Shown: one piece after another, positions 1,246 through 17,074 of the stretch
Layout of the letters: every line of letters begins with the position of its first letter
How positions within the stretch are numbered: the stretch's first letter is position 1
Assembly: GCA_017503015.1 (NCBI GenBank)
Contig: JAFVTX010000006.1
Location: 1 to 38,614, forward strand
Source: Fibrobacter sp.
Lineage (GTDB): Bacteria; Fibrobacterota; Fibrobacteria; Fibrobacterales; Fibrobacteraceae
Direction of reading: 5' to 3'
Length of the DNA: 38,614 nt
The notes under the pieces: generated by a model
The model's input: only the letters and a program-made list of their open reading frames with translations
Databases searched by the model: none
What the model was told of the DNA's origin: nothing
Position numbers and translations under genes: made by a program

Positions 1246-3093
1246 TCATATTATTTTTTCCCAAACCAATTTTACGCCAAATTCCTTAATTGTTTCTTCA
1301 CTATCTCGCCCACTAATATTCTTACCCATAGCCACCTCAATTCTATCAAGGAGCCTCTTGGCTCGGTCTACGAAATACTCATCAAACATATTCTTTGATA
1401 AATATTCGTAATTCACTTTATGAGAAGAAATTGCAGAAACAATCATTTCTTTATCAAGTCCCTTATTCTTCATTGTCTTAAGATATTCACTTGGGGCGCG
1501 GCCACCAATAGAACGATTCGAAGATGCATAAATAGGAGTCTTGTTTACTACGGAATTCCACTTTTTTTGCGGATATTTTTGTTTTTCACAATATGCCTGG
1601 GGGAAAATGTGATGAATGTCTGTATCTTCATCCAAATACTTAGCAACATCCATCTTTTCGCCACTCATAAAATCAAGTGGCGAATCTTGCATTACAATAG
1701 CCATCACGCCCTTATACGCAGCACTATTTCTTGTTTGCATAGACAGCAATCTCGTAGGAACGAAACTTGCACGAGAAACAGTATCCGGGACTTCGCCGCC
1801 CTTGATCCATTTGAACATATCGGCAATATCTAGAGCAAAGCGAGCTTCATTTGCGCCGCCATAAAGTTCTCCAAAAACACCGCACCAATACCACTTTGCC
1901 AAAAGTTCTTTGTTTGATGCAAGCATAAATGCGCGATTATCTTTCTTTTCATTATCAACCGCAAAGATTGCTGCTAAAGGAACAAGTTGTGTTGTATAGG
2001 GCAAATCGTTTTCACGATATATTCCTTGATGAACAAGGAATGACGCAGCCGACTCAAACCCACTAATTAAGAAATCTCGATTTTCCTTATATTCTTTGAG
2101 ATTCAATCTGAGAATGTCTCTCTTTTTACAAGAAACAGCACTCATTCCCTTAAGACTTTTCTTATAAGTAGTTAACAATGTCATTGCAGACAAGAAATTA
2201 TCACCCGTAACATCATTAAGCACCTGCAATTTCTTATCCCTGAATGATTGGCTTATGCTATCCCAATCTGCGCGTAAATCAAATTCATCTGCAGCAAACG
2301 TAGCAGTAACCAATTCAAATACCGTTAAAGGGACGCCTCCAGTATTCACATTTTCAAATATTTGGCATACAGCTTCTTTAGGAGTGTTTTTCAATAGTTG
2401 TATTACAGGAATTACATAATCTTGAATCGGTCGAATAATTTTTTCTCGGAAATCTCTATATTTGTTCTTATAAGATTTATCGTTATCGTAATAATCGTCT
2501 AGTCCATCTTGCCAAGCATCCATATCCTTTGCGGAGAATACGCAATTCAACGGAAACATCAGCTGTTTGTATTCCATTTCCGGAGTAGATAAATCAAGCT
2601 CAATTTTACGACCTATTTCGGAAGTAATCTTTTTATTCTTTGAAGAATTCTTTTCATCTGCCGGCACAGATACAATGGCATCTAACCTATCAGCATTTGA
2701 ATCCAAGCACTTTTCTATATCAAGATAATAGTACCTAAAAATAGTCTTGTCTTTATCCGTATCTAAACGAGTTTTTACCGGTTTCTTTGATTTAAATACC
2801 TGAAATAAGGTCGTTAAACGTTGTTGGCCATCAAGAACAAGCCATTCTGGCGATACCATTTTATCAAGGGAAACTCCCGTAAACAGTCTACTTTTGAAAC
2901 GAATAGAATCTCCACCCGCCTGGAGAAACATTGCTGCGCCCATCGGATAACCTGACGAAATACTTTCAATCAGTTTGCAAATTTTAGTATCATCCCAAAC
3001 CCAACTTCTTTGAAATTCCGGAAGTTGCGCCCCACCTTCTTCAACCAAACGAAGAAGATCTGCAAGTTTTTTATCGTGAGATTCTACGGACAT
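1246..3093 (-). CDS. GmrSD-like DUF262 / DUF1524 HNH restriction protein
   Basis: The 615-residue protein has the two domains of single-chain GmrSD-type enzymes. The N-terminal DUF262 part carries the LPEFQRSWVW strand (residues 24-33) and the diagnostic DGQQR motif (88-92) of this ParB-like nucleotide-using fold. The C-terminal part has DIHHIFP (492-498) followed by conserved Asn residues (NRSIGG near 526), the His-Me/HNH nuclease signature of DUF1524. Known members are NTP-dependent type IV restriction enzymes that cleave modified phage DNA. The ATG has AAGGA upstream. It lies 11 bp downstream of the membrane-protein gene and 10 bp upstream of the 147-aa gene. Family assignment is strong; the substrate and a role here are inferred. 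Confidence 0.85.
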   Translation of the reverse strand: MSVESHDKKLADLLRLVEEGGAQLPEFQRSWVWDDTKICKLIESISSGYPMGAAMFLQAGGDSIRFKSRLFTGVSLDKMVSPEWLVLDGQQRLTTLFQVFKSKKPVKTRLDTDKDKTIFRYYYLDIEKCLDSNADRLDAIVSVPADEKNSSKNKKITSEIGRKIELDLSTPEMEYKQLMFPLNCVFSAKDMDAWQDGLDDYYDNDKSYKNKYRDFREKIIRPIQDYVIPVIQLLKNTPKEAVCQIFENVNTGGVPLTVFELVTATFAADEFDLRADWDSISQSFRDKKLQVLNDVTGDNFLSAMTLLTTYKKSLKGMSAVSCKKRDILRLNLKEYKENRDFLISGFESAASFLVHQGIYRENDLPYTTQLVPLAAIFAVDNEKKDNRAFMLASNKELLAKWYWCGVFGELYGGANEARFALDIADMFKWIKGGEVPDTVSRASFVPTRLLSMQTRNSAAYKGVMAIVMQDSPLDFMSGEKMDVAKYLDEDTDIHHIFPQAYCEKQKYPQKKWNSVVNKTPIYASSNRSIGGRAPSEYLKTMKNKGLDKEMIVSAISSHKVNYEYLSKNMFDEYFVDRAKRLLDRIEVAMGKNISGRDSEETIKEFGVKLVWEKII

Positions 3094-6778: not shown

Positions 6779-7984
6779 CTACACCTCAATTTGGCCGGTC
6801 ATGAGGAGCGGGAGAAGGGTGTTGCGTTGGGTGGTTAATGTTTCGATTTGTTGCGAATTTACCAATTGCTTTTTAAACAATGGTGTAACCTGAGAACTGA
6901 ATCTTTTCATGGTCTCTTCATCGGGAATCGCAATTCTACTTTGATTCAAATGGTCTGTTGTAATATGCCCCATTGTTGTTTTACGGGCTTCAGCCATTCT
7001 TTTAAAATTTCCAATATAATCTTTCAATTGGAAGTAAACGAAATACAATGAGAAATATTCTTTAGGAGTAACTTTGAAAATGTGTTGATTCAAACCACCT
7101 TTAACACCATTCCACATCATCACTTCTAAAGATGCTGACCATGAGAATAGTAAATCACCAGGATTGACAATAACTTTTTCGGGGATGTCACTTCTTACAA
7201 ACTCGGTGTCGGCGGTAATGCCTTCATGCATTTCTCGGATTTTGATAACAGGCAATTTATATTTTTCTGTTGTCGGTCTATATTTCTGACAAGCCAGTCC
7301 ATTTGTAAAATCAGCAATTCGATAAAGATTATCAATTTCCCAACCTACAGGGATGTTGCGGTTGAGGGTTTTGTTGTAGGTGGTTTGGTGGCCGGCGCAT
7401 TGGAGGAAGGTGTAGTCGTAGATTGTTTTGGCGGTTTGTTCCAGCACGCGATTCTGGGCTCGGAGATTTTCAATATAATCATCTAGCGCCGAAAGGACCG
7501 CAGCAATTTTCTTTTGCTCCGAAAGCGAGGGCACAAAAATTGGAAAATCTGCTATTTGTTTACCACTTATATGAGGGATCGAAGAGCCTGTCTTTATAGT
7601 ATTCACATATTCAATAAATCTAGGCGAAGAAATATACTGCCAAATATATTTCTGGTCATACCCTTTTTTTGCGCGAACACAAGCAACTCGCTGAACAAGA
7701 ATTAATGGTAAGTCTTCTTTTTTTACAATTGCAAAATTTTTCCCAACTTTCGACCCATCCATTCCAATCACTATATCATACTCTTTCAAATAATACGGTG
7801 TCAAACCATCTGTTAAATCACTCCACCAACGAGAGTCGTTTCCAAATCTTAAAAATCGTTCCGATACATTCATCCCCCGAACAAGACGAACCCCGTTTCC
7901 TTCTGTATTGAATTTTTCACTTTCAAAAGGAAACCCCACTAATATGTCCGCCACATCACCCAACTTATACTTTGTCATTTCCAT
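6779..7984 (-). CDS. hsdS: Type I restriction-modification specificity subunit HsdS
   Basis: This 401-residue protein has the classical repeat plan: TRD1 (about 5-150), a conserved helix with SLSEQKKIAAVLSALDDYI (about 155-175), TRD2 (about 215-360), and a second conserved helix ending NTLLPLLMTGQIEV. It fixes the recognition sequence for the HsdM methylase and HsdR nuclease. The start has GAGGAAGG 7 bases upstream, inside the end of the small preceding gene. The conserved repeats flanking the TRDs are intact, so it should be functional. It is separated from hsdM by one small gene, which is unusual. Confidence 0.93.
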   Translation of the reverse strand: MEMTKYKLGDVADILVGFPFESEKFNTEGNGVRLVRGMNVSERFLRFGNDSRWWSDLTDGLTPYYLKEYDIVIGMDGSKVGKNFAIVKKEDLPLILVQRVACVRAKKGYDQKYIWQYISSPRFIEYVNTIKTGSSIPHISGKQIADFPIFVPSLSEQKKIAAVLSALDDYIENLRAQNRVLEQTAKTIYDYTFLQCAGHQTTYNKTLNRNIPVGWEIDNLYRIADFTNGLACQKYRPTTEKYKLPVIKIREMHEGITADTEFVRSDIPEKVIVNPGDLLFSWSASLEVMMWNGVKGGLNQHIFKVTPKEYFSLYFVYFQLKDYIGNFKRMAEARKTTMGHITTDHLNQSRIAIPDEETMKRFSSQVTPLFKKQLVNSQQIETLTTQRNTLLPLLMTGQIEV

Positions 7985-8311: not shown

Positions 8312-9973
8312 TCACTTCCCCACGAATTTCAAATTGGCGAGCTGTTTCTGAATTTGCTTATCCAGTGTGACACCTTCTTTGGAAAGGGTTTCTAGTTCCT
8401 TGGCGAAGCCCTTTATCTTGGCCTTGAATTCTTCGGGAGTAATCTCTACGTATTCCACCTTGATATCAAAGTATTGGCCTGCGCTCAGACTGTAGCCCTT
8501 TTCCCTGATATCCTTGTATGTCACGGCAACAGAGAAATCTTCCACCGTTTTCTTTTTGCGGAAGGTGGTTACAATCTTCTCGATTTCTTCGGAGCGTAAA
8601 CGACGCTTCTGGTTGTTGCCTTCCTTGTATTCTTCACCAAGCTTGCTGGCATCAATCAAAATCACCTTGTCGGAATCTTTCTTGGGCGATTTGTCGAAGA
8701 ACAGCACAGAAACGTTGGTTCCGGTATTCGCAAACACGTTACTCGGCATGCTGACCACGCCACTAACGATATGCTTGTCGGTAATGTATTCCAGAATTTT
8801 CTTTTCAACACCGGACTTGCTGGTAATAAAGCCCGTAGGGATAACGATTGCGCCCTTTCCTTCGGCCTTTATGGAATTAATCACGTGCTGGATAAAGCAG
8901 GTGTAAATGGCCATCTTGGGTTTGTTGGGGTCAACCTTCTTTACCTTGTTGGGGATTCCCGCCCAAAAGCGGACACTGTCTGCCGCCAGGGTGTCGGAAT
9001 ACTCAGGGAAATCAAGCTTGAACGGCGGATTACTTACCACAAAGTCAAACTTCTTGAGGCTTCCATCCTTTTCTACATGGGCGGGTTCCAAAAGGGTATT
9101 CCCCTGCACCACATTAGGCAAACTGCCTACCAGATTGTTCAAGATTAAATTCAGTCGCAGCATTTCGCTGGACTTGTCCGAAATATCCTGGCTGTAAATG
9201 GAGCAGCGGTCCTCGCCCACCTGGTGCGCAAGCGCCATAAGGAGCGTGCCGGTACCAGCACTGGGGTCGTAACAGGTTGCTCCCTTGTATTCGGTTTCGG
9301 GATCCACCAAAAGTTGAGCCATCACCTGGGCAATTGCTCGGGGAGTAAAGTATTCCGCATACTTACCGCCACCGGCATTGTTGTAATCCTTAATCAGGTA
9401 TTCAAAAATGCCGCTGAAAAAGTCATACTTTTCGTTAAAAACTTCTTCAAAGTTAAATTCCGCGATGTTCTTTACCAACGCCTTGGCAAAATCATCGCGC
9501 TTACCAATGTCAGTGACATAGGGCGTAACGGCAGCAAAGATATTCACCTTCGCCTTGCCCGAAGTCACCACCGAAAACTGGTCCTGGTTATAGGTCGCGA
9601 TATCAACCAAAGTGGAATCTAGCAACGCCGAGAAATCGCCCTGAGTCGAAGCATTGTATAAATGGCTCAAAGTCTGATGCGGCTTGATTAAGGGGATGCC
9701 TCCGCCCATATAAGAGAACAAATCCTCGACTTCTTCGTCGGTAAAGGAATCGTATTCAACATCCCACTTTTCCGCTTTGCTCAAGCGCTTTTTATAAGGA
9801 GTCTTTTGGTTCTTGGCTTCAAAGGCAAACTTGTCGTTAAAGAACTTGTAAAGGAAAATCTCCGTGATTATCTTGTATTCGTTGCCGCCATTTGCAAGGC
9901 CATACGCACCCGTCGTACTTTTAAGGGAATCAATAAGGGCTATGGTTTTGGCTTTGAGTTCTTCGGTGTTCAT
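8312..9973 (-). CDS. hsdM: Type I DNA adenine methyltransferase HsdM
   Basis: The 553-residue protein has an N-terminal HsdM helical domain and an N6-adenine methylase core: SAM motif DPSAGTG (residues 236-242) and catalytic NPPF (315-318). It methylates adenines at the site chosen by HsdS. Length is normal for the family. Its ATG directly follows the TAA of hsdR, so translation is coupled. Both motifs are intact, in contrast with the HsdM-like protein at 14685. Confidence 0.96.
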   Translation of the reverse strand: MNTEELKAKTIALIDSLKSTTGAYGLANGGNEYKIITEIFLYKFFNDKFAFEAKNQKTPYKKRLSKAEKWDVEYDSFTDEEVEDLFSYMGGGIPLIKPHQTLSHLYNASTQGDFSALLDSTLVDIATYNQDQFSVVTSGKAKVNIFAAVTPYVTDIGKRDDFAKALVKNIAEFNFEEVFNEKYDFFSGIFEYLIKDYNNAGGGKYAEYFTPRAIAQVMAQLLVDPETEYKGATCYDPSAGTGTLLMALAHQVGEDRCSIYSQDISDKSSEMLRLNLILNNLVGSLPNVVQGNTLLEPAHVEKDGSLKKFDFVVSNPPFKLDFPEYSDTLAADSVRFWAGIPNKVKKVDPNKPKMAIYTCFIQHVINSIKAEGKGAIVIPTGFITSKSGVEKKILEYITDKHIVSGVVSMPSNVFANTGTNVSVLFFDKSPKKDSDKVILIDASKLGEEYKEGNNQKRRLRSEEIEKIVTTFRKKKTVEDFSVAVTYKDIREKGYSLSAGQYFDIKVEYVEITPEEFKAKIKGFAKELETLSKEGVTLDKQIQKQLANLKFVGK

Positions 9974-12900
9974 TTACACTCCATAACTATTATACTGATT
10001 GATGTATTCATTAGAAATCAGGTTGCTAATGAATTTGCGGTCATCAAGACTTGCAGTCAAATCAAGGTCCATGAACTTGTGGCTTACGCAGCCCAAAATA
10101 TCCTTACGGAGTTTGTCCTCGTTTTCCACAATTCCCGGATTCTTTTCAAACAGGTCGTCGGCAGAGTCCTTGATTTCGATAAGGCTTTTCTGAATTTCGA
10201 ATTCTTCCTTAGCAAGCAAGGGTCTTTCCTTCTTATCGCTTTGGGCACGCACTTCATTTGCTTCTACAATTCGCTTGTGAATGCGGACAAATTTCTCATC
10301 GTCCTTGTAATGGGACTTTAGCGCGCGATTCTTGCGATTGATTTCCTTGATTTTAGACATTACGTCTTTCAAGTAGAAAATGCTGCCTTCGGCTTCAGTT
10401 TTGTCTTTAGGAATGTAGCCGTGTTCCCTGAAATACTTTTTGAATTCTTCAATAAGGTTGACAAACTTGTCTTCTTTCTTATCGAAGTTGGCATCAAATT
10501 CGGCACGGACCTTTTCGGCTTCTTCCCTAAGGCTATTGATGATAATCTTGAGTTCTTCTGAAATGCCCTTGCGGAATTCAAAATCCAGACTATCAAGAAT
10601 CGTATTGATTATGCCCGACACATCTTCGCTATGGTCGTTGCCTTCCTTGAAGTTAATAGCAGCAATACGGCGTTCCACTTCACGCAGCAAAACAGGAATG
10701 CCACCGGGCAGCATGTTCTTATACTTGTCCTGCAGTTCAACGTTCCCGCTGGAACGGATTCTGTTGCCCAGGCCCTTTGCATCTTCAAGAATTTTACGAA
10801 GGTGGTACAAAGGTTCCTTGTCTTCAATTCCATCAATGACTTCGCGGAATTCTTCGTAATTCTCGGTAGGGAAATTCCACAAGAAATCCGTCAGTTCCTT
10901 AATCTGCAGCTTGACTTCTTCGGGATTTTCAATAATCACCTGGCCCGGGTCAGCGGAAAGTTCCAAGCCAGAATCTTCTGTAGTCTTGTTCAGTTCCCGC
11001 AGGTAACGGTCGTTGGTGGCATCAAAGTTTTCCTTGATGTCAACAAAGTCCACCACGTAGCCGTATTTGAAATCCTTATACGGGCGATTGACACGAGTCA
11101 GCGCCTGCAACAAATCGTGACCATCGAGTTTGCGACCAAGATACAACTTTTTCAAGCGGTTTGCGTCAAAACCCGTAAGCAACATTTTATTGACAATCAA
11201 AAAGTCCGTCGTCATGTTCTTCTTGTAGTCAACAATGTATTCCTTGCGTTCCTTCTTGTCTCCTTCGTCATGGAGAATCAGGGACGCCTTCAACGGTTTT
11301 TCAAAGAAAGAAGCGTTGTAATGCATCAGCTTTTCTGCCGCCATGTTTGCGACTTCTTCTCTCTTTTTCTCAATGACGCTTAATGCAAAATCGTAGCGTT
11401 CGTTCCACAACTCAAAAAGTTTACGGGCCTGGTCGTTGGTTTTGCAAACAATCATCGCACCAATAGACTTGTCGTCGCATTCAACGCGGAAAGAGGTAAA
11501 ATCATCGATGATATAATCCAGCAAGGCGTTCAAATACTTTGGATGCTCAATGATTTTATCCTTATCGATATCGCTCTTTTTGACTTGAATCTGGTTTGCC
11601 GAATTGTTTTCAAGCTCATCAAGAATCCCCTGCAAAGTTTCTTTGTAGTGGGTTTCAATGGGTTCACGCATCAACTTAAGCGTGTAACCGTCCGCAATTG
11701 ACTTGTCGTAATAGTAGGTGTGAATGTAATCGCCAAACACGCGCCAGGATTCACGTTCTTCACGAAGCAGCGGAGTGCCCGTAAGGGCGAGCTTTATTGC
11801 ATGTTTGTCGGCACTCAAAAGGTTTGCAAGGAACGCACCTTCGGGATTGTAACCTCGGTGAGCCTCGTCAATAAAGAATATTCGTTGCAGGTTTGTGTTG
11901 TAGCCCGCAGAAATATCTACTGGGGCCTTGTCTTCGGCAAATTTCTGGATATTCACCACGGTGATTTCCAGCCTACCGTCGGCACTTTTTACCAGCTGCG
12001 TATTCTTGATATCTGCCATGAGTTGTGCGCGGTCTTCTACAGTCTGCACAACAAGTCCACGAGCGGCAAACTCGTCGCACGCCTGTTCCATCAGGTCGAT
12101 TCTATCCACGATGAAATAGAACTTGGCGGGAATAGACTTCTTCGCAAAATAGTCGGTGAGGCTCTTTACGGAGTAATAAGCCAAAGCCGTCTTGCCGGAG
12201 CCCTGCGTATGCCAAATGATTCCACTCTTTACGCCTTCATCCAATTTTTTACGGATGGCAAAAGAAGCGAAAAGTTGCTGGTAACGCATTACATGTTTTT
12301 CAAGCGTCTTAATCTTTTCGCCGTCGTCTTTTTCGACAGTCTTTTCTACATAGGCAAAACCATAACGAAGCAGGAACAAGAAACGTTCCTTGCTCAGCAA
12401 CGAAGTCAGAATGCGGTTCGTGGGAGTAGTCACCTTGCAATTCGTAGCATACTCCGGATGGCACTTGAGGGAAAGGCAATTTCTGTGCTTAAGAATCAGT
12501 TTTTCAGTGTCTTCCGAAACCTCTTGATACGAATACTTGGGGCCAAACTTTTCGTCTTCTTCGCGGAACACATTGAAAAACGCTTTCTGCTTACCAATGC
12601 AGGCGTAGAACGCACCCTGGACAGGAACACGATTCGCATTGTCGTATTCTTGATTGTTGCTAAAAATCATCAGCTGGGTGATGTTCAGAAAACGCCTAAA
12701 ACTTTTGTTGGGCAAACGTTTCTGGTTAGTACGGCTTTGCTCGGCAACAATGCCTTCCGCATTATTCGGCTTTTTCACTTCGATAAAAGCCAAAGGCAAC
12801 CCGTTCACAAAACACGTTATATCTGGGCGGAAACTATCACCCGTCTCCTGATTCTCGCAAGGAAGTTCCGTCGTCACGAGCCAGCTATTGTTCTCCGGAT

Positions 12901-13204
12901 TTTCGAAATCAATCAGCTTGATTCCAGAATTCGAAGAAAGCACCTGGTAAAATTCACGACCAAGATCGTCGCTGCCAAGCTTGCTCAACGCAAACTTCGC
13001 AAAAATTTGAAGGTCGTGGAGCTTTTGCTCCGGATTTAAACGAACAAGTGCTTTTAGGAATTCATCGGTAAGAACGTTATTGTTCTTGTCTAGCCTACCT
13101 ACCGGAGTTTCTTCGCCGCATTCAGCAAAATAGGTGTAACCCAAACGGCACAGATGAAGTGCCGCCGGGACCTGAACTCTAGTACATTCGTTAAATCCAG
13201 CCAT
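9974..13204 (-). CDS. hsdR: Type I restriction endonuclease/translocase subunit HsdR
   Basis: A 1076-residue protein with the N-terminal nuclease site SFRPDITCF...FIEVKK (D128, E142, K144 from this start), then a superfamily 2 helicase: Walker A TQGSGKT, DEAH box IDEAHRGYNP, motif III LTGTPLL and later RVNRPYKDF. It translocates and cuts unmodified DNA. The ATG at 13204 begins MAGFNECTRVQVP, typical for the family; an in-frame TTG at 13234 with AAGG nearby would add ten residues. It is first gene of the leftward operon. Length and motifs are complete. Confidence 0.96.
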   Translation of the reverse strand: MAGFNECTRVQVPAALHLCRLGYTYFAECGEETPVGRLDKNNNVLTDEFLKALVRLNPEQKLHDLQIFAKFALSKLGSDDLGREFYQVLSSNSGIKLIDFENPENNSWLVTTELPCENQETGDSFRPDITCFVNGLPLAFIEVKKPNNAEGIVAEQSRTNQKRLPNKSFRRFLNITQLMIFSNNQEYDNANRVPVQGAFYACIGKQKAFFNVFREEDEKFGPKYSYQEVSEDTEKLILKHRNCLSLKCHPEYATNCKVTTPTNRILTSLLSKERFLFLLRYGFAYVEKTVEKDDGEKIKTLEKHVMRYQQLFASFAIRKKLDEGVKSGIIWHTQGSGKTALAYYSVKSLTDYFAKKSIPAKFYFIVDRIDLMEQACDEFAARGLVVQTVEDRAQLMADIKNTQLVKSADGRLEITVVNIQKFAEDKAPVDISAGYNTNLQRIFFIDEAHRGYNPEGAFLANLLSADKHAIKLALTGTPLLREERESWRVFGDYIHTYYYDKSIADGYTLKLMREPIETHYKETLQGILDELENNSANQIQVKKSDIDKDKIIEHPKYLNALLDYIIDDFTSFRVECDDKSIGAMIVCKTNDQARKLFELWNERYDFALSVIEKKREEVANMAAEKLMHYNASFFEKPLKASLILHDEGDKKERKEYIVDYKKNMTTDFLIVNKMLLTGFDANRLKKLYLGRKLDGHDLLQALTRVNRPYKDFKYGYVVDFVDIKENFDATNDRYLRELNKTTEDSGLELSADPGQVIIENPEEVKLQIKELTDFLWNFPTENYEEFREVIDGIEDKEPLYHLRKILEDAKGLGNRIRSSGNVELQDKYKNMLPGGIPVLLREVERRIAAINFKEGNDHSEDVSGIINTILDSLDFEFRKGISEELKIIINSLREEAEKVRAEFDANFDKKEDKFVNLIEEFKKYFREHGYIPKDKTEAEGSIFYLKDVMSKIKEINRKNRALKSHYKDDEKFVRIHKRIVEANEVRAQSDKKERPLLAKEEFEIQKSLIEIKDSADDLFEKNPGIVENEDKLRKDILGCVSHKFMDLDLTASLDDRKFISNLISNEYINQYNSYGV

Positions 13205-13422
13205 AATCTTTAACTCAAAAACCGGCTTGCCCAAGAGGGCAAACCTTATGTTGACAATATACCTTAATAATATGGGGGATAATTCTATGTTTTTGGAGAA
13301 ATAGCGTTTTTCAGGAAAAAAGCTCTCTCCGACATCAGTTTTCGGACGTAACAGACGCCAATAAGTAAAATTATTTTAACTAAATGCTATTTTTGGCCTA
13401 AAAACGGCAAATCATCCACCAT

Positions 13423-13442
13423 TGTTCAAAAACTTTTGAACA
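13423..13442. promoter_or_regulatory. Perfect palindrome, likely operator upstream of the orphan R-M cassette
   Basis: TGTTCAAAA-AC-TTTTGAACA has two perfect 9-base arms. It lies 17 bp upstream of the -35 box of the rightward promoter, and a half copy, TTTGAACA, recurs at 13487-13494 over the -10 edge and expected transcription start. The arrangement resembles a repressor or controller binding region in the 346-bp divergent gap between hsdR and the rightward cassette. No regulator gene is identified beside it. Apart from this and the promoter I see no gene in the gap. Confidence 0.6.
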
Positions 13443-13459
13443 TTTTTATTAAATCGCTA

Positions 13460-13488
13460 TTGACTCGTGCTTTTTGATATTGTATATT
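13460..13488 (+). promoter_or_regulatory. Sigma70-type promoter for the orphan HsdS/HsdM cassette
   Basis: TTGACT (13460-13465), a 17-base spacer and TATATT (13483-13488) make a strong vegetative-type promoter. The transcript would start near 13495, giving a leader of about 56 nt before the ATG at 13551. Confidence 0.75.
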
Positions 13489-13550
13489 TGAACATAGAAA
13501 ATAAATCAAAATTCAAACACAACAACATCAGTAAATCACGAGGCGCCGCC

Positions 13551-14015
13551 ATGAAAAACAACATCCTTAAGTTAGAAATGTTCGAAGCCGTATGCAAGTG
13601 CGGCCACGTCGGGAAATCGCATTACGTAATCATCAGTTTCCCCTTGATGGCGCAGTCCAAGAAAGACGCCGCCAGAATCGCTCGCGGGATGCCGCGCGTA
13701 AAGCACGACTACCAAGATGCCATTTTGAACGTTTTCAATATTGACCAGAAGCGCTACTTTGAACTGCTTGAAACCAACGACCGCGACCCCTATCTTCATT
13801 GCACCTGCATTCAGGATCAGAATATGCTCGACCTGTCTGACCGATTAATGGACGAAGACCGTTCGAATCATTACACTTCCCGCAAAGAAGAAAACAAAAA
13901 GTCATTCTATTGCAACAAGCAAAAAATCCGCAACCAGAAAAAATACATGACTCGTTACTACGACTTTGAGAAAATCAGCAACTACAACACCATTGAATAC
14001 AACGACATTGCATAA
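13551..14015 (+). CDS. Cys-rich 154-aa protein of unknown function, first gene of orphan R-M cassette
   Basis: The start ATG at 13551 follows GAGGCG and lies downstream of the promoter; an in-frame TTG upstream begins at 13467, before the expected transcription start, and is rejected. The N-terminal half has a conserved-looking core: VCKCGHVGKSHYVI, a beta-strand, an Ala-rich helix (SKKDAARIARGM), then PRVKHDYQDAI, and NDRDPYLHCTC. CKC and HCTC together could form a zinc site. The last ~50 residues are basic and low in structure. I believe similar CGHVG/PRVKHD proteins occur near methylase genes in anaerobes but cannot verify this. Function is unknown; it is followed directly by an HsdS-like gene. 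Confidence 0.75.
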   Translation: MKNNILKLEMFEAVCKCGHVGKSHYVIISFPLMAQSKKDAARIARGMPRVKHDYQDAILNVFNIDQKRYFELLETNDRDPYLHCTCIQDQNMLDLSDRLMDEDRSNHYTSRKEENKKSFYCNKQKIRNQKKYMTRYYDFEKISNYNTIEYNDIA

Positions 14016-14026
14016 TGGAGACAACC

Positions 14027-14680
14027 ATGACGAAAAAAAGATTAGGCGACATTTCTAAAATTACCGGTGGCCAAATCACTTCCAGGCTGGAAAAGAAAGA
14101 AATCGACGATCTCTTTGAGATTGTACGCGAATCCGACAAGCCAAAGATTACATGCGAAGCTCTTGTTCTTGTACCCAGAGCAATTTCGAATGGTTTTGTG
14201 GACAAATCTTCTTTGATGAAAATCGTTTGCGAAAAAGAAACCAAAAAAGAACTCGACGCAACGGACTTGACTTCATACGTTGACGAAAGCAAAATTACGA
14301 AAGCAAACACTTTGGTTTTGAAGTTGTCCACGCCGTACGACGCCTGCGTTATCACGAAAGATGACGAGAACCTGATCGTCTCATCTTTTTGCGCATCCCT
14401 GACGCTTACGGATAAAGACGTTGACTTACTTTATGTTCTCGCCTTTTTGAATTCAAAACCATACCAAGACCAAATCAAGGACCTCGCAGCAGGTTCCGCC
14501 ATCCCTTTAATTTCTGTAGGAGCAATCGAAAATGTACAGATTCCTCTTCCGTCTAAAGAGGAACAAAAACAAATTGGAAAGGATTTCATAAACACTATGA
14601 AAAAAATCAAACTCATTAATAAAGTCATCGCTTTGGAAAGCGAAAAAATGAACTCTATTTTCTACGGAATGGAGGGATAA
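14027..14680 (+). CDS. Single-TRD HsdS-like specificity protein
   Basis: The 217-residue product corresponds to half an HsdS: an N-terminal RLGDISKITGG, one target-recognition-like domain, then SAIPLISVGAIENVQIPLPS and the conserved helix EEQKQIGKDFINTMKKI. The ATG at 14027 is chosen over an ATG at 14015 because GGAG sits 6 bases before it. Half-size HsdS proteins can act as dimers to recognise palindromic sites. It lies between the 154-aa gene and the HsdM-like gene and would be its natural DNA-recognition partner. Confidence 0.8.
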   Translation: MTKKRLGDISKITGGQITSRLEKKEIDDLFEIVRESDKPKITCEALVLVPRAISNGFVDKSSLMKIVCEKETKKELDATDLTSYVDESKITKANTLVLKLSTPYDACVITKDDENLIVSSFCASLTLTDKDVDLLYVLAFLNSKPYQDQIKDLAAGSAIPLISVGAIENVQIPLPSKEEQKQIGKDFINTMKKIKLINKVIALESEKMNSIFYGMEG

Positions 14681-14684
14681 GAAG

Positions 14685-15968
14685 ATGGATAAAAATAAAA
14701 GTTTTGCAAATGACTTTATTCACGGAATGCTTCTCAATGGGGCTCCTGATGATCGTTTAATTCCATATTCTGGTGCAAAAAAGACCTTGATTGAATTGCT
14801 TTTTTTCAAAGCAATGATGACAAAGTCTGATTTTGCGAACATGCAAGGTCAAGAAGACTTCAATGTAATGCTCGACTTCATGCGTATGTGCACCTCCGGC
14901 GGAGATGGATACGACGAAGCGATTACAGCAAAGACATTAAACATGTTCGAAAGGAACCACGGACTTCCCTGCGGAACTCTTGAAATAGATTCCTTTAAGA
15001 ATCTTTTGCGTAATCATTGGTATCTCATCCATGAGACTTTCTCTTTAAACATTTCCTCGCTGGAAGGCGATTACGCAACAAGCTTGGCAGATTTAATCAC
15101 CCGTCCTCAAGACAACAAGGACTCCGCGAACACCTATCTTTATTACACAAACGAAAGTCTTCAACAATTAGCAGCAGGAATCCTGAAAGTCAAGAACAAT
15201 GAAACATTTATGGATTGTTGTTGCGGAATGTTTTCTTCAGCGCTTTACAACGACGCAGCAAATTACATCGGCGTTGAATTGGACAAAGAAATTGCCGGCA
15301 TCGCGGCAATGATCCTGATTATGGCCAAGAAGAAATTCAACATCAAACACGAAAACTTCTTGGATTACAAAGATAAAAATGTTGCAGACAAAATTCTTGC
15401 CGATATTCCCTGCGGCACAGGAACGCCCCAAACGGAGAATCGTCCTTACGGCAAAAATACCGAAGCTTATTGTATTGAGAACGTTGTCAACGCTCTTAAA
15501 GATGGCGGCAAGGCTGTAGTCGTCTGCTTTGGATCGATTTTGAGCAAACAGGATTCTTCGAAAAAATTGCGCGAGGCTCTTACGAAAGATCACTTGCAGG
15601 CAGTAGTCGTTTTGCCTCCGATGAGCAATGGCACAAAATCAAATACCAATTTGATCGTTCTGCAAAAAAATTGCCATGCCAAGGAAATCAAGTTCATCAA
15701 CGCATCGAATCTTGACATCAAGAACAAGAACAGATTGACGCTGAACGAATCTGATATATCAGACATCATCAAATGCCTAGATGGCGAAAATGCTAATTGT
15801 TTTTCCGCAAGCATCCCTGTCGAAGATATTTTGAAATCCGATAGCATTTCTTGGACTCCGAACAGCTACGTAAAGGGAGATGAGAAAAGCAAAGGGCGTT
15901 CCATTGAAGAAATTGATAATGATTTGAAAGAAACCTACAAGAAACTTAAAGACTTGTTTCTGAGTTAA
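14685..15968 (+). CDS. HsdM-like protein with degenerate methylase motifs
   Basis: The 427-residue protein follows the HsdM fold: a YYTNESLQQLAA segment in place of the usual YTP, motif I region, a methylase core and a C-terminal helix region (RSIEEIDNDLKETYKKL). Two key motifs are altered. Motif I reads DCCCGMF (177-183) rather than DPxxGxG. The catalytic motif reads DIPC (240-243) rather than NPPF or NPPY, losing the aromatic residue. It may bind DNA without methylating, or use unusual chemistry. No HsdR accompanies it on this strand. GGAGG lies about 10 bases upstream of the ATG. Confidence 0.8.
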   Translation: MDKNKSFANDFIHGMLLNGAPDDRLIPYSGAKKTLIELLFFKAMMTKSDFANMQGQEDFNVMLDFMRMCTSGGDGYDEAITAKTLNMFERNHGLPCGTLEIDSFKNLLRNHWYLIHETFSLNISSLEGDYATSLADLITRPQDNKDSANTYLYYTNESLQQLAAGILKVKNNETFMDCCCGMFSSALYNDAANYIGVELDKEIAGIAAMILIMAKKKFNIKHENFLDYKDKNVADKILADIPCGTGTPQTENRPYGKNTEAYCIENVVNALKDGGKAVVVCFGSILSKQDSSKKLREALTKDHLQAVVVLPPMSNGTKSNTNLIVLQKNCHAKEIKFINASNLDIKNKNRLTLNESDISDIIKCLDGENANCFSASIPVEDILKSDSISWTPNSYVKGDEKSKGRSIEEIDNDLKETYKKLKDLFLS

Positions 15969-15991
15969 TTGTTGTTGTTCATTCTCATAAT

Positions 15992-16018
15992 CGCTCGCCG
16001 ACGGCGGGCGTTTTTTTT
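15992..16018 (+). terminator. Rho-independent terminator after the orphan cassette
   Basis: CGCTCGCC-gac-GGCGGGCG (8-bp stem with one G-T pair) is followed by eight T residues, 24 bp after the stop of the HsdM-like gene. Confidence 0.9.
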
Positions 16019-16116: not shown

Positions 16117-16145
16117 TTGACATATTATAGCATATATGCTATATT
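16117..16145 (+). promoter_or_regulatory. Promoter with embedded operator for the toxin-antitoxin pair
   Basis: TTGACA (16117-16122), a 17-base spacer and TATATT (16140-16145). A perfect 18-bp palindrome, TATAGCATATATGCTATA (16126-16143), fills most of the spacer and reaches into the -10. A repressor bound there would block RNA polymerase, as expected for autoregulation by the HTH antitoxin downstream. The predicted transcription start (16151-16153) coincides with the toxin GTG codon. Confidence 0.8.
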
Positions 16146-16151
16146 TAATGC

Positions 16152-16574
16152 GTGGAGTTCAAGTTTTTTCCAAATATTCGCAATTATGACCCCGAAAACA
16201 CGGAGCCTAAAGACGAAATAGGTGATGTCGGAAGAGAATTGGAGGATTTGTCAAAGCGGCGTCCCGATCTGTATTTGCGCGTAAAGAGTTTTTTGCTGAT
16301 GTTAAAGAGAGTTTTAGATCTAACTCCGTATTTGCAGAACAGTCAAATTTATAGGTTCCCTAAAGAATATGACGGTCTCTATGAAATGCGGATTCCCAAG
16401 CAGGCGCGAGGTGGTGTCTTTAGAATATATTTTTGTATGTCGTTGCGCGAGTTGAACACTTTGATTTTGTTGTGTGCGGAATTGAAGCATAAAAAGGAAC
16501 CTATGAAATTGGCAACGGCTTTCAGCAAATTGAAGCAATATAGGGAACTTGTCAAACAAGGAGCGATGCTATGA
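16152..16574 (+). CDS. RelE/HigB-like type II toxin
   Basis: The 140-residue protein matches the phage-derived Gp49/HigB type of RelE-fold toxin: a helical N-terminal half, then IYRFPKEYDGLYEMRIPKQ, a strand with RGGVFRIYF, and ILLCAELKHKKEPMK, with basic residues positioned as in mRNA interferases. Such toxins cut mRNA at the ribosome. The start is GTG, placed at the expected transcription start, so the message seems leaderless. Its end overlaps the antitoxin start by four bases (ATGA). Toxin-first order is usual for the HigBA type. Confidence 0.85.
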   Translation: MEFKFFPNIRNYDPENTEPKDEIGDVGRELEDLSKRRPDLYLRVKSFLLMLKRVLDLTPYLQNSQIYRFPKEYDGLYEMRIPKQARGGVFRIYFCMSLRELNTLILLCAELKHKKEPMKLATAFSKLKQYRELVKQGAML

Positions 16575-17074
16575 AAAAGAACCAAGTCCTAGATTTCATG
16601 GACACTCTTGAAAAGGGTGACAAAAAGCTTGACTCGTATGCGAAAATGTACGAGGCTCTGTCGGCGTTCCTGACGGATTTCGACTTCTTGAAAGATTCCT
16701 TGGGTTTGACTCAGCAGGATGTCGCCGAGAAGATGGGCACCACGCAGAGCGCCATCTCTCGCATAGCATCGCTGAAAACGAATCCATCCTACAAACAGTT
16801 GCAGAAGATGGCGGAGGCTGTCGGTGGCGAACTCCTTGTCACCCCGATGAAAAGCATGACCGTCCAGGTACCTTACGACATGCAAGAGTCCGTGCGCAAA
16901 CTGGCCGCAAGCGAGAACAAGTCGACAAGCGATTACCTGGAAGGCGTTTTTCGCAACGCCATAGAGTTGGAACGCTCTAGCTATATGCACCGAACACTCG
17001 CATTGAGCAAAGTTTGCGAACCGAGGACTGTATACAATTGCCACGGCAGAAAGCCTAAGCGGAAAATGAAATAA
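16571..17074 (+). CDS. HTH antitoxin with a ribbon-helix-helix-like C-terminal part
   Basis: An XRE-type helix-turn-helix is clear at about residues 37-75 (LTQQDVAEKMGTTQSAISRI). After it, about residues 97-135, a stretch reading MTVQVPYDMQESVRKLAA and then ENKSTSDYLEGVFRNAIE looks like a ribbon-helix-helix or Arc/MetJ-type fold. The 167-residue length exceeds typical HigA (about 100). The protein should neutralise the toxin and repress the operon through the palindrome at 16126-16143. It stops 1 bp short of the convergent acetyltransferase gene. Confidence 0.82.
   Translation: MKKNQVLDFMDTLEKGDKKLDSYAKMYEALSAFLTDFDFLKDSLGLTQQDVAEKMGTTQSAISRIASLKTNPSYKQLQKMAEAVGGELLVTPMKSMTVQVPYDMQESVRKLAASENKSTSDYLEGVFRNAIELERSSYMHRTLALSKVCEPRTVYNCHGRKPKRKMK

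Follow-up and report, generated by a model that had tools for sequence, protein, structure and literature searches.

Much about the control of type I restriction operons is still to be worked out, as is the function of the short HsdS encoded before some hsdM genes. In type II restriction-modification, C (controller) proteins, which are HTH proteins, control the endonuclease gene. Type I restriction operons are repressed by RptR, a helical homodimer of 9 kDa that binds the 6-bp palindrome TAGCTA (PMC12255303). In the staphylococcal hsdRSMS operons, a conserved half-size HsdS of 191 aa, hsdS_short, is encoded before hsdM; its authors left the role open, proposed help in assembly, and reported that the short S is needed for proper methylation (PMC10030836). 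The open-access literature that we searched contains no report of an HsdS-based repressor.

A three-gene cassette beside a type I operon

The window, that is, the whole stretch of 38,614 nucleotides analyzed here, comes from a gut bacterium of the Fibrobacteraceae with an assembly of 2.96 Mb. Three co-directional genes encode, in order, a 154-aa protein of a widespread unannotated family (P1; 13551-14015, plus strand), a half-size HsdS of 217 aa with a single target-recognition domain (S′; 14027-14680, plus strand) and an HsdM-like protein of 427 aa (M′; 14685-15968, plus strand). Only short gaps separate the genes, which have ribosome-binding sites (GGAGA at 14017 precedes S′), and the half-size S, whose stop lies at 14680, is immediately upstream of the methylase gene starting at 14685. 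A sigma70-type promoter, TTGACT-17-TATATT (13460-13488, plus strand), agrees with the consensus at 10 of 12 positions, and an intrinsic-terminator-like hairpin with a T run follows M′ (15992-16010, plus strand); its fold z is only -1.2, so that it is weak evidence for a terminator on its own. The cassette reads rightward, between a leftward type I operon and a 140-aa ORF with an HTH gene (16152-17074). The divergent operon consists of hsdR (9974-13234), hsdM (8312-9973), in which DPSAGTG and NPPF are both intact, and a full-length hsdS (6779-7984), all on the minus strand. These observations bear out the earlier note, which had described three genes with a promoter and a terminator as one unit that diverges from a full type I operon, carries no nuclease gene among its three genes, and encodes an HsdS of half size: the match of S′ to Pfam Methylase_S (E 4e-9) covers a single recognition domain, short of the two domains of a complete HsdS.

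Cassette loci with readable context are situated among defence genes. Elsewhere in the window, a DUF262/GmrSD-like protein (1249-3093) has PADLOC matches to PDC-M55C and HEC-05, and its presence in the same region suggests a defence island. On the other side of the cassette, at 16117-17074, a strong promoter (TTGACA-17-TATATT) and the palindrome AGCATATATGCT lie ahead of the 140-aa ORF and the HTH_3 protein, which might form a toxin-antitoxin pair that has an operator of its own.

Members of the P1 family are about 135 aa long and share a conserved core of KCGHVG and RVKHxHKDAI. Searches of Pfam, NCBIfam and PHROGs with P1 gave nothing convincing, and the one PADLOC match, to GajA, was weak (E 0.006) and judged to be due to chance. 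P1 had been called Cys-rich, which holds for the window protein, with 5 Cys in 154 aa, but not for the family, in which only C17 is nearly invariant among 41 members. The AlphaFold model of P1 has a confident core (pLDDT 83); its Foldseek matches are weak (E of at least 0.25 in PDB and at least 0.02 in viral models), as are those from VIA-align, in which ribosomal eL20-type proteins reach a Z of at most 6, a likeness that may be no more than a common arrangement. P1 relatives occupy many contexts and often immediately precede genes for anaerobic ribonucleotide reductase (NrdG/NrdD-like), both in gut bacteria (L045 7983, L046 2347, L050 8004, L053 541 and L058 8028) and in phage NatCom_17901 (L040:7004-7411). 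In genome G002, a 161-aa ORF (L037:6913-7398) flanked by two large genes of helicase type includes a fragment that resembles P1 (36% over 74 residues); neither S′ nor M′ accompanies it.

The P1-S′-M′ order is present in five Fibrobacteraceae genomes, namely the window genome (G000), G014, G030, G116 and G165; a carrier of the cassette in this family is deposited as Fibrobacter sp. UBA1765. The cassette of G014 adjoins the same type I operon as in the window; no type I operon accompanies those of G030, G116 and G165 within the stretches that were read, and G116 and G165 share a third chromosomal site. A P1 search of 84,980 species genomes returned 51 loci, among which the three-gene order was found, besides one already known member, in two distant Bacillota MAGs, one of Acholeplasmatales (L049) and one labelled Erysipelothrix (L052), with 23-24% identity in M′ and 36-38% in S′; many of the relatives come from MAGs. 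The samples of Clostridia, Bacilli and Bacteroidia searched with S′ profiles yielded few matches and no further P1-S′-M′ cassettes, the viral contigs scanned contained no relative, and plasmids and phages searched for P1 and M′ gave just one phage P1 relative and distant HsdM. In L049, the cassette continues into hsdM-S-R, with hsdM beginning 10 bp past the M′ stop codon. The word orphan, applied to the cassette in the earlier note, is not entirely apt, since in L049 the cassette opens a type I operon. The search for the three-gene set elsewhere, which that note had proposed, has located it in four other Fibrobacteraceae genomes and two Bacillota MAGs.

M′ matches Pfam N6_Mtase (PF02384, E 6e-22), and its sequence reads exactly as had been noted, with DCCCGMF at motif I and DIPC at motif IV. 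In all seven cassette M′ proteins, from three lineages, motif IV has the form D-x-P-[CSLI] (DIPC in three, DIPS in two, and DFPL and DGPI), whereas in the 55 other HsdM sequences that we collected and aligned with them, it is N-x-P-[FY] without exception (55/55). The altered motif is therefore conserved among members from two phyla. None of the seven has the final aromatic residue of the methylase pattern [NDS]-P-P-[FYW]; this aromatic stacks the flipped adenine, and its non-aromatic substitution impairs adenine methylases (PMC10050889). The G-x-G of motif I is lost in the Fibrobacteraceae M′, kept in L049 (DPFVGTG) and largely kept in L052 (DFSCGYG), so that SAM binding may survive in some M′ proteins. 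The M′ core (residues 147-350) has a dN/dS of 0.03-0.06, obtained from comparisons with dS of 0.16-0.84, at which silent sites are unsaturated. S′ is likewise conserved and under purifying selection. Decay unique to this strain is ruled out by the seven altered motifs in two phyla together with this strong purifying selection, and the simplest reading of the sequences is that M′ would be a catalytically dead methylase under selection. The structure model of M′ (pLDDT 60, and below 50 around the SAM pocket) was too poor in confidence and was left unused.

The first 146 residues of M′ have been exchanged; they exist as two types that differ strongly between otherwise near-identical proteins. G116 and G165 carry the cassette at the same chromosomal site, with P1 and the M′ core nearly identical (core dS 0.04), and yet their M′ N-termini differ to the point that silent sites are saturated; S′ is also affected (dS 0.37). 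Because the promoter sites described below do not track the N-terminal type, the N-terminal domain does not set DNA specificity. To judge from this pattern, it may be a contact for a partner or an inhibitor under diversifying pressure.

Paired sites at the promoters of cassettes and S′ operons

In the window, two copies of a bipartite site, TTTGAACA-N7-TAAATC, accompany the cassette promoter. Site 1 (13435-13455, plus strand) ends 4 bp short of the -35 element, and site 2 (13487-13507, plus strand) overlaps the end of the -10 element and the expected transcription start; the two are direct repeats that bracket -35/-10 and lie 52 bp apart, about five helical turns. Across the five Fibrobacteraceae genomes, 28/28 half-site bases are invariant, as are 10/14 spacer bases and 63/139 of the other bases in 13380-13560 (Fisher 4e-9 against the half-sites, bases not being independent). 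With zero mismatches, TTGAACA-N7-TAAATC has exactly two copies in the 2.96-Mb genome, both at the cassette. When single Fibrobacteraceae genomes were compared with shuffles, the repeat pair was mostly not significant (p 0.01-0.13 by genome), and the weight of this site pair therefore rests on its conservation. A palindrome, TGTTCAAAAACTTTTGAACA (TGTTCAAAA-AC-TTTTGAACA; 13423-13442), whose right arm forms the first part of site 1, had been proposed as the operator. The palindrome does exist, but it is kept in G000, G014 and G030 only and lost in G116 and G165, and it was rejected in this role as not conserved; the conserved element is the direct bipartite pair.

The two distant cassettes have pairs of their own. 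In L049, two copies of GTACCAAAAAAATATGACAAMATT at a distance of 70 bp flank TTGACA-17-TACAAT; in L052, two copies of ATGWACATRAAWAACATTTCAAWATT at a distance of 80 bp flank TTGACA-17-TATTAT. No shuffle equalled either pair (z 6.6 and 5.7, respectively), and the L049 24-mer and the L052 26-mer each have two matches in the whole genome when up to 3 mismatches are allowed. Site pairs thus bracket TTGACx-17-TATAAT-like promoters in all three cassette lineages, and their sequence differs between lineages where S′ differs; since L049 and L052 have their own pairs around their promoters, the layout is conserved and the address varies together with S′.

In Bacilli and Clostridia, searches with S′ profiles also detected S′ genes of about 200 aa; each precedes an intact hsdM, behind which come a full hsdS and hsdR, an arrangement similar to that of staphylococcal hsdRSMS. 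Repeat pairs are present at S′ operons that lack P1 (L104, L106, L118, L119, L128, L129 and L131); the promoter-bracketing pair is inverted in L104, L106, L118 and L119, and that of L129 is TGTTATTTATTACTCATGACAAA / TGTTATTTTTTTCTCATGACAAA (z 8.1). L131 (5225-8074), on a plasmid of Aliarcobacter cryaerophilus, is a GNAT acetyltransferase-S′-hsdM operon in which the GNAT gene takes the place of P1. Its direct repeats, TGTATTATTTTAA..., lie around TTGACA-17-TATACT (p 0.05), and L130 is marginal (p 0.09). Of the five S′ loci tested after the idea had been formed (L128, L129, L130, L131 and the staphylococci), three fit it (L128, L129 and L131); the staphylococcal hsdRSMS promoters, tested against shuffles, showed no significant pair. 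In total, a significant pair (p<=0.05) is found in 10/16 S′ lineages and is missing from 6/16, including the staphylococcal hsdRSMS operons. P1 genes without S′ have direct pairs in 4/47 cases and inverted pairs in 5/47, and the comparison of the 10/16 S′ lineages with 8-9/47 P1-only controls gives a Fisher p of about 0.001-0.002, with direct and inverted pairs pooled, loci treated as independent, and part of the S′ set having served to form the site-pair idea. The factor shared across these loci is S′: pairs are mostly absent from P1-only operons and frequent at S′ operons that have no P1, which makes P1 an unlikely binder.

A few loci depart from this arrangement. At L045, L058 and L059, which have P1 without S′, a direct repeat pair, e.g., TAGTGCAAATGGTGTCCTAT twice at a distance of 94-95 bp, is located upstream of P1 (250 bp), and at L045 and L058 a small HTH-like ORF lies just upstream; this ORF is perhaps another repressor that replaces S′-M′. 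L105 (4302-6020) encodes a fused M′-S′-type protein of 572 aa with NYPF as motif IV, and a complete type I operon follows. Upstream of this protein, the palindrome AGGTT-N6-AACCT occurs twice with a distance of 44 bp, which is not significant against shuffles.

Possible roles of S′ and M′

We consider it moderately probable that S′-M′ is a catalytically dead, HsdS-addressed autorepressor of P1-S′-M′ and, in at least one relative, of the attached type I operon as well. S′ and M′ would form a complex similar to a type I methyltransferase and devoid of catalysis, in which S′ would give the DNA address and M′ would be the structural partner or scaffold, probably also carrying a switchable domain in its exchangeable N-terminus. 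By binding both copies of TTTGAACA-N7-TAAATC, the complex would limit P1-S′-M′ transcription, the two occupied sites presumably blocking initiation or looping the DNA; when the complex is scarce, P1-S′-M′ would be transcribed. In L049, where the M′ stop is separated by 10 bp from hsdM, itself followed by S and R, the cassette promoter would govern the amount of restriction enzyme as well. The cassette would thereby act as a controller made of the same kind of parts as the enzyme. We infer both S′-M′ as the binder and repression as the effect from the sequences. A half-size S normally gives palindromic targets, and the asymmetry of the bipartite sites consequently counts against S′-M′ autorepression, as do the P1-only loci with repeat pairs (L045, L058 and L059). 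S′ may also do more than repress, since the staphylococcal short S was reported to be necessary for proper methylation (PMC10030836). Of the roles listed in the earlier note, a DNA-binding regulator, a silenced methylase or a defence or anti-restriction unit, the evidence favors the regulator, which would act through sites other than the operator named there.

Alternatively, S′ and M′ could be accessory subunits of the neighboring type I enzyme that associate with HsdM/HsdS and modulate its assembly, methylation or restriction. The cassette does adjoin a type I operon in the window, G014 and L049, and hsdS_short is needed in staphylococci for proper methylation (PMC10030836), but the stretches read of G030, G116 and G165 contain no type I operon and the conserved promoter sites would be left unexplained, and we regard such a role as rather unlikely. 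That M′ is an active methyltransferase with an unusual motif IV could be argued from the second P and the initial D of that motif and from the intact motif I of L049; given the absence of the aromatic in 7/7, the additional loss of motif I in Fibrobacteraceae and a genome in which TTGAACA-N7-TAAATC occurs just twice, it is very improbable. Deviation of the motifs from the consensus would also be expected of a decaying orphan of a type I system, an explanation to which we give hardly any credence in view of the purifying selection, the open frames in five genomes and the same kind of change in two phyla.

A special case of S′-M′ autorepression is a guard module, in which S′-M′ would repress P1 and double as bait for those anti-restriction proteins of phages that bind to type I methyltransferases; their removal of S′-M′ from the DNA would turn on P1, together with the restriction operon in some relatives. 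Its main support is the replacement of the M′ N-terminus by recombination between G165 and G116 while the sites stayed fixed, as for a pursued domain; the position of the cassettes among defence genes, the GNAT gene in place of P1 in the Aliarcobacter S′ operon and the CreTA precedent for CRISPR agree with it. The toxicity of P1 is, however, putative, and P1 relatives are found in many settings, such as next to the anaerobic ribonucleotide reductase genes of bacteria and of a phage; we consider such a guard quite doubtful. More speculatively, HsdS-addressed transcription control might be a general second life of type I subunits, with half-size S′ and HsdM or a dead M′ binding paired bipartite operators at their own promoters and with P1-type cassettes as guards that release an effector upon phage anti-restriction capture of the M′-S′ bait; this wider proposal appears unlikely to us at present.

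Comparison with known systems

If S′-M′ binds its operator, the DNA-reading machine of restriction would have found a new use as a programmable transcription factor, and the varied recognition domains of S′ proteins would provide natural repressors, each with a long address of its own. The site pairs provide exact sequences for testing.

Like staphylococcal hsdRSMS, the cassette has a half-size S directly ahead of a methylase gene. The two differ in that the hsdM of hsdRSMS is intact, full HsdS and HsdR are encoded in the same operon and P1 is absent; in the window, the intact hsdM lies in the divergent operon. The best PADLOC matches of M′ and S′ are MAD2 and MAD5 of MADS (E 2e-19 and 9e-16, respectively), but the MAD5 match reaches 38.7 bits against an NCBIfam cut-off of 400 bits, no other mad genes were seen among the cassette neighbors, where a type I operon lies instead, and the cassette is a three-gene unit. 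With CreTA, the cassette would share the reuse of an immune effector as the repressor of a small adjacent module; CreTA uses Cascade and RNA, and the analogy is one of logic alone, with P1 toxicity putative. Similar to C proteins, S′-M′ would be a dedicated autoregulator of a restriction operon, although C proteins have no relation to HsdS/HsdM. As in an autoregulatory repressor, conserved sites are located at the cassette's own promoter, and RptR is likewise a first-gene autorepressor of a restriction operon with repeated sites at its own promoter; unlike RptR, S′-M′ would consist of HsdS/HsdM-like proteins with long bipartite sites.
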